Source of the DNA: Tubulanus polymorphus
Lineage: Eukaryota > Nemertea > Palaeonemertea > Tubulaniformes > Tubulanidae
Reading direction: 5' to 3'
Assembly (NCBI RefSeq): GCF_964204645.1
Contig: NC_134032.1
Coordinates: 9,232,275 to 9,296,274 of the forward strand
Length of the DNA stretch: 64,000 nucleotides
Part shown: positions 43,801 to 61,800 of the stretch, in pieces
Layout of the letters: each line of letters opens with the position of its first letter
Position numbering within the stretch: the stretch's first letter is position 1
Notes under the pieces: generated by a model
Told to the model about the DNA's origin: nothing
Database searches by the model: none
Seen by the model: only the letters and a program-made list of their open reading frames with translations
Position numbers and translations under genes: made by a program

Positions 43801-46800
43801 AGTTTCTTACGAGAATCGACTCATGCAGTTATACAGAATCTATTCTATGAATTGTTCACGGTAAAATTCCTTCAATAATATCTCTTCAAATATGTGTTAG
43901 ATTTCCTTCAAAATATCTTTCAAATTCATTCAAATTGGAGTTGTTCGCAGTAAGCTATTCCTTTATGATATGAAAACATGTAAATTAGATACTTGAGAAT
44001 TTGACAATCTGCAAAATGGCCCCAATAATCTTAAGGTTCGCAATTTGATCCTTTGAAATTTGCTGAAATAGATATCTGCAATATGATCTTTTTAGCCCAC
44101 TTGGGACTTTAGTCCCAGCGGGCTATTGCGTTCACTTTTCGTCCGTCGTCCGTCCGTCCGTCCGTAGACGGAATCCAGTTATTTTGGGAAGTTTTGAAGA
44201 TGCTTCAAGGTAATGTCTTGATATTTGGGTTACACATGTATCTACCCTAGACACATCTTCAGCCCAAAAACTGGCCCTGTCAGAATCAAAATGGCCGACT
44301 GGCAGCCATTGTTGTTCGCCAAAATCAGCACTTTTTACACATTTTTGAACTTTTTGAGGGAAATTTTGAAGACGCTTTGATCAATTACCTTGATCTTTCG
44401 GGTATATGTGAATCCCCCCAGGGCCCATCAACATAACAAAAATTGGGTCGGTCGGACTCAAGATGGCCGTCCTATGACCTTTTTAGTGCCCAAAAATGTT
44501 AATTTTGGCCCGAATTCTGAGTCCTGTAGCTTCCTACTGGTTTGCCATTTCTCATTACAATTTGTGATGGGTGTTCTTTGGAAAGGGATATTTTATACCT
44601 GAGACAGGTATTTTTCAACAGCCAATTATGACGCAATTGGCGGCCATCTTGGTGTCACCAGTACTCATTCGTAAGTGGGAAAAAGTTTTTCCACATTATA
44701 TTGATACCTAAGCGTATTTTGCAATCAATTAGAAAGTTGTAGCTCATAACGTGTTCTATGATTGTGGTGAGTTTCAAGGTAATTGGAATTCGTATATGGC
44801 CACCAGGGGGCGTTGAATAATACAATATCTTAGCATTTCTTTATTATATTCGTACCTATGAATATTTTGTAACCACAATCAATTGGAAAGTTGTAGCTCA
44901 TGACATCATCTATAATTGTTGCGAGTTTTAAGGACATAAGTTTTTCTATATGGTCACCAGGGGGCGTTGAATAGTAGAATAACTTAGTATTTCCTTATTA
45001 TATTGGTACCTAGGCATATTTTGTTACCATGATCAATTGCAAAGTTGTAGTTCATGACATGTTCTATGATTGTGGTGAGTTTCGAGGTCATTGGGTTTTG
45101 AATATGGTCACCAGGGGGCGTTGAATAGTAGAATGACTTAGTATTTCCATATTAGATTGGTAACGAGGCATATTTTAAGGTCATTGGTTTTTGTAAATGG
45201 TCACCAGGGGGCTTTGAATATTGAAATTGTTAGATTGTTGAGCATTTGAAACCACTTCCTAAGTGGGCATGGTGTCCCTGGACCCCTAGTTTCATCTTGA
45301 TTATCTGCAAAATGACCCATTAGAATTTTGAAATATGCAATTTGTGCAATTCATATGACCCTTTAAAATTTTGACCTCTATAAATTTTAAAATCTGCTAA
45401 ATTACCCACTAGAATTTGCGAAATCTGCCGCTAGAATTTACAAAATCTGATATATAACCTTTTAGAATTTGCAAAATCCTTCCGAAATTTACAAAATTGG
45501 AAACCGATCCCTTGAAATTTGCAAAATCTGTAGTGACCCTTTTATATTTTGGAAACCTGCAAAATAGGCTCTTCATGAGTTTGTGAATCGTGGCAGAGAA
45601 ACTAAATATTTCCACTGCATTGTATTTCAGACATTTCTAGCCAATCAAAGACCGGGATCCGGTCTCGTGTCGGTGGTATCGTGGCTCGCGACCGGTAACG
45701 CAGCTCCCTCTTTACTCGATCGTGACTCGATGCCCGAGTTCCCGTGGTTGGCGTACTACATCCTGGATGCCGAGGCTCGCTACGAGACGGAATCCGGTCT
45801 GTGGAGTAAACTGGTCTCCGAAATGGTGAGACGCCCGCAAACACCGATCGAGGCCTCGCTTAAGGTAGAAACATGTATATATATACCCATTTTTAGAGAG
45901 ACAGTGACTAACCATAGGCCTAGGACCCAGCTCCATAGTTGTTGGTTCAACAAAAATTAGTTCATATTCAATATCTTAAACAAGAATCTGTATTCCTAAA
46001 AGTGACTATTAAGTCTCTGAAATTTGTATGAAAGTATTCATCATATAGTGCCAAATCTTAAGTTGCACCTTAAAAACTGAGTCCAAGACCAATGTCTATC
46101 ATTGTGAGTCACAGGAAAATTATTACATTTTCAATGACAGTATTTTAACTCCATGAAAATTCAAACTCAACTCCTCATTGATAGCTTAAGACTTGTGTAA
46201 AACTCTATTGTTTATTTCCTCGTATTCGTTTATTTCGTTCACGAATGGATTTTATATCAATTGTTAAAATTGTATAAAGAAGCGGATTCAGAGGCGAGTT
46301 GATCGGTAAAAATAAAACGGCCAGCCAAGCGGCCACCTGGTACGGTATTTCGACTGAAAATACAGCGCAAAACTGAACGATTATTATTGGTAGCCAGCAA
46401 AATAAGTTATAAAGATTTATTACTAAACTCCTTCGAGCTAAAACCAGTTCGGTAGGATCGGCTCTACCCGAGCCCGATCTACTTCCCGATACGAGTCCAT
46501 ACATCTGAGCGTATGTCGTCATTATCGTAGCCAATATAACCGTATTAAACAAAGCAAAAATGGCGAATGAATATTGCCAGCCATTGACGTTGATCGTCAG
46601 TAAATTCATAGGTACACAAACTCCGGTCGTACCATAAAAATTGTCTCCGAAGTAAGACGACGATGAGAGCGGTAGGATAGAAACAGTATTGATAACGAGC
46701 CAACAAACACAGCAAATACCGATAACGTATTTTGGAGTAATGATTGGATTTCTTGAAAACGGGTTGACGATATTTGAATATCTCTGACGTGTTAGAATTA

Positions 46801-58800: not shown

Positions 58801-61800
58801 AGGTGGATGTCCGGTTTGTTCTCGTATACGAGCTATAGGTTCACTGGTGCTGTTCCATCCGTCGTAAACTTGAGGACGAGTTTTCACTGGATCCTCACCG
58901 GGATATAATCTGAAATCTACCTGTATGAACGTTAGATTCATAGCGAAACCGTTCGGCATCCCGATCCATTCTAACAATAATTTACATCGCCGAGTAGAAA
59001 TCATAAATCTATAACCTGTTTCAGATTGTAGCTGTTTTACTGCATCTTTGTGACATTTACCGGTGTGTGCAATTTTCAAGCGACCCGGTTTTTCAAAACG
59101 ATATATGATATAAACCCGGCTACCTCGCGCTCCATCAACACGGCTCCTAAACAACAACGGACTCAAATCATTACTGCTGATATCCAGTTGTTTTCTTCCA
59201 TTACCGCAGAGTTTGTTATCAGACTTGCCACCGATGAGAAGATAGTTATCACTACAGAATATTGACGGCTCGATGTCGTAGTAAAGCTTGATGTTGAAAG
59301 TTCCCGGTAAAGAGCTGTTGACGAACCAACGACATTCAACACCGCGCGTTAACGAAGGGTAATTCGGTGAAACGATGTAACCAGACGTAGAATCGACGGA
59401 GTAGTGACTGTTGTTACAGGATGAACTGATCGTCACAGATGTTTCCACTTTGATAGAGTCCGCGCGGGGATCAGCCAACGTGAATATACAGTCTCTACAA
59501 GCGATCAGTAAAACTACAAACAACGCTTGCATTCGCTGCATTTTGAACAAAATTCGCAGCATCAGAACGAAAGCATTTCACAGGAGTTGCTTCGGAAATA
59601 ATGATCACTAAGTGAAGTAGGAAATAGGGATATGTTTTTGAATTGATATTTGAGTCGAATTATTTCGTGCAGAACTTGCCGTCAAACTGGCGCTGGTCTC
59701 GTATTTTTGATCAGCTCAGTTTCGCTGTAATTACCGCAGTTTCTGAATATTGACGGATTTTACAGTATCTCGTGTTTCAACAATTATTTTTCTAGCAATA
59801 TTCACCGACGCTCTCGAACTGTGCTCAGTATATATTAAAGTTTGACGATAATGCAGTTGGCGTAAGCACAGCCAGTGGCAACGCTTGAGTCAGAATTTCT
59901 GTATTTTCATTTACTTAAACTCTACTTTAATAGAAATATATTCATTTTCAGTTAACCCCTTACGTGCTGTAGGTAGTCAACAAAATTTTCTATTGCTTTC
60001 AAACCCTTGATTGAAAACATTGGTATGTTACCATTTCACCCCTTCCCATTTCGTTCTCCTTCCCATTTCGATCTCAATTTATTACCATTTTACCCCTTTC
60101 CATCTGACGAATTTGGAAGTGGGGAAATGGGAAAGGGGCAAAACAGGAAATGGGCAAAATGGGAAGGGTTGAAATGGTCATTTTCAACCACTTCAATTTC
60201 TTTACTGTCAATATAAATCAATTTCAATTACTTAAACTATTTGTGGGTAGAATTAGTTCACTCTAAATCATTTAGATCGAACCTCTCAAGGTCAAATCTG
60301 AATCCATGACTGTGGAACTGGGTCCTGGTTGTTGTAATAATCTTTGATGCACGTTTCCAAATTCGGTATGTGTATATATGTATATATATATATATATATA
60401 TATATATATATATATATATATATATATATATATATATATATATATATATATATATATATATATATATATATATATATATATATATATATATATATATATA
60501 TATATATATATATATATATATAATATTATTTGTAGAAGGTGGCGACGCAGTTGAAGTTACCGATCAGTCCAGTATCCGGCAGACTGTCTATTTACCGGTG
60601 GGCGAATCAAGCTAAAGACACCGCCGTCGACCACCCACTACTGCCTTTAATGTGGCAAAGATTCTTCGTGTTGTTCCTGGCTCGACCTCCTGTCGAACAG
60701 GGGTAAGTTTTCTGTAAATGATAATGATAATGATAATAATGATAATAATAATAATAATAATAATAATAATAACGATAACGACAACGACTACGACTACGAC
60801 TACGACAACGACAATGACAACAATTATTTATATAGTGCAGGTATCCTAACCTGAGTGAGTTCAGATGCGCTCTAACTTGGAATTATTACCCCCAGCCTAT
60901 AACTCTATTCCATGTATCAGTCATCTCTCCCTGGGGAGAAGTAACATCCTAGCAGCTGCTAAGCGCTCAGGAGTTGTCTATCAGGCCAGGTATCCACTTA
61001 CTCCTGGGTGGAAAGAGGCAATGAGGATAAGTGACTTGCCCGAAGACACTACGGCAATGTACGGTATTCGTAACCACAACCTGGCTTCACAGAGTCGAAT
61101 GCTCAAACCACTCGTCCACACTGCTCGCCTGTTACTGGACTGACAGATATAATGCATCTTTGAAACTTATCCCTGAAATGCTTGACCGTGTGGCAGGGCA
61201 GCGGTCAGATTGATGTGAAAAATTATGAAAAATTGTGAAAGATGTATGTACGCTTGAGTTGTGAAAGAAATTCTGGAAAATTTGAAATCTATGAAAAGTC
61301 ACAAAAAATCTGTTAAAAATCATGAAAAGTTTCCGTCAAAATATTTTGATACGTTTTTCTGGCATATACTGCATTCATGTGCGAGCTGTGTTTGAGTTTG
61401 AGAAATTTGATTTTAAATGTGATGGCGTGCCTTTACATGAAAAATGTAAGAAGAATCATGGGAACTATATCCTGATATCTTGTTGTGAAAAACTGCGAAA
61501 GAAAGGCCCATTGTAAGGACGCAAAATAATGTGAAAATTCCAGAGTTCATCTATCTAACCCGTGGTAGGGGTGGGGAATATGGAGGCAGCCATCACTTTT
61601 GGATATGTCTAAGGAGACTGGGGATTAATTTGATGTGATGGGGGATATGTGAAAGTAGCTCTCTTTTCTGCTAAGATGTCATGGGTAGATATTGCCAAGG
61701 CTTTTCCTGGCATGAACTTTGATGTCATAGGTAGATCTTTGGATGAAACCTTTTTTTTCTGGAAGTTCTATAGGGGTGATTTTACATTTGATGATCCCAT

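Follow-up and report, generated by a model that had tools for sequence, protein, structure and literature searches.

We analysed a window of 64,000 nucleotides (64 kb) from the nemertean Tubulanus polymorphus (contig NC_134032.1, positions 9,232,275 to 9,296,274; coordinates below are those within the window). Its minus strand carries a gene, here called copy A, which is predicted to encode a GRL101-like leucine-rich-repeat-containing G-protein-coupled receptor (LGR) with CUB and C-type lectin-like domains ahead of its LDLa and leucine-rich-repeat (LRR) modules. Next to it lies a decayed tandem duplicate, copy B. At the level of sequence we are confident that CUB, lectin-like, LDLa, LRR and seven-transmembrane (7TM) parts belong to one protein. 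The features are collected in Table 1.

Table 1. Predicted features of the receptor locus
Feature	Position	Strand	Remarks
Copy A, exon 1	58303..59562	(-)	signal-peptide-like start, CUB domain 1, then about 260 residues; donor GTAAGT from 58302
Copy A, exon 2	56278..57648	(-)	region without family call, weak CUB-like stretch, start of lectin-like domain
Copy A, exon 3	52952..56185	(-)	remainder of lectin-like domain through stop codon
CUB domain 1	59164..59397	(-)	residues 56-133; Pfam PF00431
Weak CUB-like stretch	56554..56928	(-)	residues about 661-785; profile comparison with CUB 1
C-type lectin-like domain 1	55940..56508	(-)	residues 801-959; interrupted by 92-bp intron 56277-56186
Possible degenerate second lectin-like stretch	55511..55831	(-)	residues 996-1102; by eye only
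LDLa modules	54578..55468	(-)	six Pfam stretches, some degenerate; PF00057
Leucine-rich repeats	53951..54568	(-)	PF13855; followed by hinge with YKFCCMAP
Rhodopsin-type 7TM	52997..53869	(-)	PF00001; nearest solved relative relaxin receptor 1
Polyadenylation-type hexamer	52866 (first base)	(-)	about 85 bp past copy A stop
Copy B, tandem duplicate, pseudogene	46205..52415	(-)	DNA identity to copy A, stops, deletions

Gene model of copy A

Three stop-free stretches on the minus strand (58294-59577, 56257-57669 and 52952-56185) comprise 427, 470 and 1077 codons, against a longest run of 241 codons in 60 simulated 64-kb sequences (first-order Markov) that served as the chance baseline. Exons 59562-58303, 57648-56278 and 56185-52952, joined at GT/AG, give 1954 residues and a stop codon with no internal stop. 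The three-exon product of about this size postulated in an earlier note on this DNA is thus borne out as to frame and junctions. Both introns are in phase 0, the first with donor GTAAGT after 58303 and acceptor TTTCAG before 57648, the second with donor GTAATA after 56278 and acceptor TAG before 56185. The interval 46205..59562 assigned there to the receptor has to be divided, the intact copy occupying 52952-59562 and the remainder, 46205-52415, being the separate pseudogene copy.

Because the first ATG (59562) is missing from copy B and the second is kept, translation probably starts at the second, 59541, giving 1947 residues. Residues 11-29 of the product form a hydrophobic, signal-peptide-like stretch. 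Exon 3 has a tandem acceptor (TAGCAG at 56183-56188, minus strand), which offers an in-frame option of one glutamine within the lectin domain; copy B keeps just the first of the two acceptors. A scan of viral contigs with exon 3 found no relatives, and an Rfam search over the window returned nothing at gathering scores.

Domain composition

The receptor core is the best defined part. Pfam finds in exon 3 (1077 residues) Ldl_recept_a (PF00057, E 6.3e-33, six stretches), LRR_8 (PF13855, E 2.3e-34) and 7tm_1 (PF00001, E 2.4e-21). The 7TM domain itself gives E 3.1e-22 with PF00001 and covers profile positions 12-260 of 260; a hydropathy scan separated, at its threshold, six of the seven transmembrane segments. 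The earlier assignment to GRL101/LGR-type receptors with LDLa, LRR and 7TM is supported. Against PDB the LDLa region matches LRP2 and the LDL receptor. The 7TM part scores highest with relaxin receptor 1 (149.5 bits), followed by the LH (78.4), TSH (68.4) and FSH (67.5) receptors and one uncharacterised G-protein-coupled receptor (GPCR; 66.8 bits); these are pairwise scores rather than a tree. Ten distinct PDB sequences were matched at E<=1e-10, none of them an LGR4-6 chain. The protein contains the motifs NPLLY and FCW, and has Q-R-Y in place of DRY.

The lectin-like domain is likewise recovered by Pfam, as had been predicted. In residues 1-960 Lectin_C is found at 820-901 (E 1.7e-6), N-terminal of LDLa. 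With exons 2 and 3 joined it reaches 30.9 bits (E 5e-7); exon 2 alone gives 16.1 bits, under the cut-off of 22.6, and exon 3 alone has no Lectin_C among its Pfam matches. This straddling of the junction is the best evidence that exons 2 and 3 would contribute to one protein. Six cysteines (801, 812, 830, 929, 948 and 959) fit what we take to be the long-form lectin-like pattern, and the top-scoring solved relatives in PDB are lymphocyte antigen 75 and the phospholipase A2 receptor. Sugar-binding C-type lectins typically carry EPN or QPD, together with WND. None of these strings occurs anywhere in the copy A protein, which leaves the direct recognition of glycans suggested in the earlier note unsupported. 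For the possible second lectin-like stretch (residues 996-1102) Pfam gives no Lectin_C match.

The CUB part is less uniform. CUB 1 is found by Pfam PF00431 in residues 1-960 (E 2.2e-6, 28.4 bits, span 56-133) and, above the curated cut-off of 21.4 bits, in exon 1 alone (E 1.1e-4, 22.9 bits); cysteines 49, 77, 103 and 119 presumably correspond to the CUB pattern. A PDB search with exon 1 returned 15 sequences at E<=10, led by amidohydrolases (0.015-0.017), with the CUB protein complement C1s at 0.044, PsaF at 0.061 and others worse. The non-CUB matches (amidohydrolases, PsaF) were taken as chance. Because C1s ranks below unrelated amidohydrolases, this search is no independent confirmation: CUB 1 stands on Pfam and gains little support from PDB. 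The approximately 260 residues that follow it in exon 1 match no Pfam family above its cut-off.

A second CUB domain is much less certain. In residues 1-960 Pfam lists two CUB stretches at E<=10, and a profile comparison of CUB 1 with residues 655-790 (probability 30, E 5.5e-4) was the best of 15 pairwise comparisons among six N-terminal segments, the other 14 giving no signal. The fragment 661-791 alone matches no Pfam family, and exon 2 of either copy returns Lectin_C only and no CUB. Searching PDB with the profile of exon 2 yielded 23 sequences at E<=10, apparently of C-type-lectin fold by name, none named CUB. Several stretches at residues 160-800 look like CUB by eye and may include further CUB folds, but neither Pfam nor profile comparison supports them, save 661-785 weakly. 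The plural CUB modules of the earlier note thus probably reduce to one clear domain (Pfam 56-133) and a weak second one at about 661-785.

The tandem copy

Copy B aligns with copy A over two blocks (DNA identity 86.1% and 86.9%) that take in all three exons, and the donors and acceptors of both introns are kept. Three stop codons interrupt it in the frame of copy A, and it has lost 2 bases at one point and 5 at another; we therefore regard it as a pseudogene. Downstream of it, at 46204-45700, there is no polyadenylation-type hexamer.

The copies differ by 17-26% in the 5´ flank and intron pieces and by 9-13% in exons. Differences at third codon positions are in clear excess in exon 3 (218/403, p 9e-18) and in mild excess in exon 2 (72/179, p 0.03). 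The ratio of nonsynonymous to synonymous divergence (Ka/Ks, with bootstrap intervals) is below 1 in every exon and falls from 0.62 (0.41-0.92) in exon 1 through 0.44 (0.31-0.63) in exon 2 to 0.24 (0.20-0.30) in exon 3; by region it is 0.46 (0.35-0.59) for residues 8-962, 0.21 (0.15-0.28) for LDLa and LRR and 0.17 (0.11-0.28) for the 7TM part.

Synonymous divergence (Ks) is itself uneven: it is 0.07 over the first 160 residues and 0.47 in the LRR part, a roughly sixfold range within the gene, and none of 1000 codon shuffles matched the observed unevenness over 12 blocks. The simplest reading that this unevenness suggests is gene conversion between copies A and B; local mutation-rate differences may be an alternative cause.

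Class membership and known relatives

Like copy A, relaxin receptor 1 and other type C1 LGRs combine LDLa with LRR, and relaxin receptor 1 is the closest in 7TM, although in the alignment it has E-K-Y where copy A has Q-R-Y. To our knowledge these receptors have neither CUB nor lectin domains. A CUB domain on the ectodomain of a GPCR is found in ADGRG6/GPR126, but this is an adhesion-class receptor with a GAIN domain and its 7TM belongs to another family than that of copy A.

Among LGRs, LDLa in the ectodomain is described as the mark of type C, types A and B being without it (PMC11863921), and multiple LDLa with LRR and an LGR-type 7TM are termed type C2 or GRL101 (PMC4079206, PMC11863921). 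Copy A unites LRR_8 and 7tm_1 in one exon, has LDLa in its ectodomain in six stretches, that is in multiple modules, and its 7TM part is by pairwise PDB scores nearest to relaxin-type receptors. GRL101 of Lymnaea stagnalis likewise has LDLa, LRR and an LGR-type 7TM, with twelve LDLa and six LRR against the six LDLa stretches of copy A; as described, it contains no CUB or lectin domain (PMC8286064, PMC12297450).

The nearest published counterpart comes from the SudRes2 region of the snail Biomphalaria sudanica, which is reported to be associated with resistance to Schistosoma mansoni (PMC12297450). Ten mutually paralogous GRL101-like genes that combine LRR and LDL with a C-type lectin-like domain are described there, and two more without one of the domains. 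The authors present the N-terminal lectin domain as unique to SudRes2 genes relative to GRL101 and propose pathogen sensing (PMC12297450). According to that account, SudRes2 receptors share with copy A an ectodomain of LRR, LDL and C-type lectin-like parts on a 7TM, the lectin-like domain of copy A lying N-terminal of LDLa, and both loci hold clustered paralogues, some of them incomplete. They may differ in lacking CUB, which is mentioned 0 times in the main text of PMC12297450 and 0 times in the preprint. In the open-licence literature we found no description of CUB combined with a lectin-bearing GRL101/LGR receptor; where the terms occurred together, it was in lists or references on other subjects. 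The combination of lectin, LDL, LRR and 7TM has already been published, and copy A would extend it: an LGR of GRL101 type with a lectin-like domain and an N-terminal extension that contains CUB, the part that appears to be new.

Other features of the window

At 44722-45176 a 154-bp unit is present in three tandem copies, each containing ACCAGGGGGCG, which resembles what we take to be the CTCF core. This motif has 5 matches with <=1 mismatch in the window against 0.24 expected. Diverged 154-bp units recur at 57849-58212, inside intron 1 of copy A, and a right-hand flank is common to both sites (45197-45292 and 58118-58212, 84%). Perhaps these sites represent a mobile element whose core is tandemly repeated.

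A transposase lies at 4249-5412 (Pfam DDE_Tnp_1_7, E 3.6e-72), with a second fragment at 107-637 on the minus strand (E 6.5e-11); we take both to be piggyBac-like. Mutator-like transposase pieces are found at 5962-7236 (E 9.2e-53) and, below the cut-off, at 2486-3154 on the minus strand (E 1.3e-4). On the plus strand, an open frame of 783 codons at 11009-13360 matches RIX1 (E 1.9e-19) and, below the cut-off, the PELP1 middle domain; it is probably a ribosome-biogenesis gene.

Proposed function and alternatives

We propose that copy A, the intact member of a tandem pair whose other member is dead, encodes a GRL101-like (C2) LGR that recognises a protein or pathogen ligand at the cell surface and is coupled to G proteins, a reading to which we give slightly less than an even chance. 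The receptor would sit on the cell surface, where its distal CUB/lectin-like part might capture a protein or a pathogen- or parasite-derived ligand. The contact would be between proteins, not calcium-dependent sugar binding of the classical kind. Binding could then be relayed by LDLa and LRR modules to the 7TM part, as in relaxin receptors, and the 7TM part would activate a G protein. The locus itself appears to have been reshaped by local duplication and by loss, and probably also by gene conversion. A role in recognition or immunity is plausible; of the recognition role put forward earlier, the immune part gains by analogy with SudRes2 (PMC12297450), while the glycan part is left without support.

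Several observations weigh against this proposal. The full three-exon chain is a model that draws on splice signals and homology, and it is the presence of several LDLa modules, rather than a tree, that places it in C2 (GRL101) and not in C1. In finer regions, Ka/Ks of lectin domain 1 (0.20) is about that of the 7TM part (0.19), so that the lectin domain is not fast-changing; CUB 1 (0.83, with a Ks as low as 0.07), the weak CUB-like stretch (0.62) and the unassigned parts change faster, and the pseudogene status of copy B raises Ka/Ks by itself. Exon 1 shows no excess of differences at third codon positions (34/106, p 0.64), and the 3´ flank differs by just 11%, over 27 bases. GRL101 paralogues are described as usual in chelicerates and decapods (PMC7357564), and duplication is therefore no argument for immunity. 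GRL101 has been proposed as a receptor for insulin-like growth factor (IGF; PMC8286064), and the SudRes2 authors state that associated variants are not necessarily causal (PMC12297450).

The alternative to be taken most seriously, though we hold it doubtful, is an endocrine GRL101 in which an insulin-, IGF- or relaxin-like peptide binds LRR and LDLa and the CUB/lectin-like part acts as a spacer or co-receptor handle. The match of 7TM and LRR to relaxin receptor 1 and the strong constraint on LDLa, LRR and 7TM between the copies agree with it. We know of no role of CUB and lectin-like modules in hormone binding within the relaxin-receptor class, which counts against it. Veenstra proposes IGF as the GRL101 ligand (PMC8286064, PMC7357564), and the chelicerate and decapod paralogues are described with no immune claim attached (PMC7357564). 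On the other side, Ambulacraria are reported with one GRL101 gene per species studied (PMC8286064), and the lectin-bearing snail cluster is placed in a resistance-associated region (PMC12297450). Two points shift our estimate slightly from surface recognition toward a hormone receptor: the lectin domain is constrained like the 7TM part, and some arthropods usually have paralogues of GRL101.

A chemosensory or gamete-recognition receptor of sensory tissue or gonad seems improbable to us. A GRL101-like gene of the crown-of-thorns starfish is reported to be expressed higher in sensory tentacles than in tube feet (PMC6267866), but the description of that receptor mentions six LDLa motifs and neither a lectin nor a CUB domain (PMC6267866). 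Very improbable is a run-together of separate genes, one for a secreted CUB/lectin protein and, downstream of it, one for a GRL101 receptor. It could be reconciled with the polyadenylation-type hexamers inside intron 1 (57875, 57812, 57789), with the third-position pattern of exon 1, and with exon junctions that are modelled from the sequence. However, the lectin domain spans exons 2 and 3, and intron 2 contains no polyadenylation-type hexamer. The exon 2 frame has its first Met far inside, and exon 1 is stop-free up to its donor. The three exons were also duplicated together, with order and splice sites conserved in copy B. The earlier view that the parts are not separate genes is therefore the one we retain.

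Implications

In its boldest form, surface recognition by copy A would extend to a clustered family of innate-immune GPCRs. CUB and lectin-like modules would here have been grafted on a relaxin-type receptor and be rebuilt by duplication, gene conversion and the formation of pseudogenes, and proteins of pathogens or parasites would be turned directly into G-protein signals; this we think unlikely as a whole. Those relaxin-type GPCRs that have known ligands respond to hormones. If the bold form were true, the same signalling core, equipped with recognition modules, would link a class of endocrine receptors with immunity in invertebrates. The resistance-associated SudRes2 cluster would be a concrete place for testing that link, and the addition of CUB together with the decayed tandem copy suggests that the rebuilding of such ectodomains continues.

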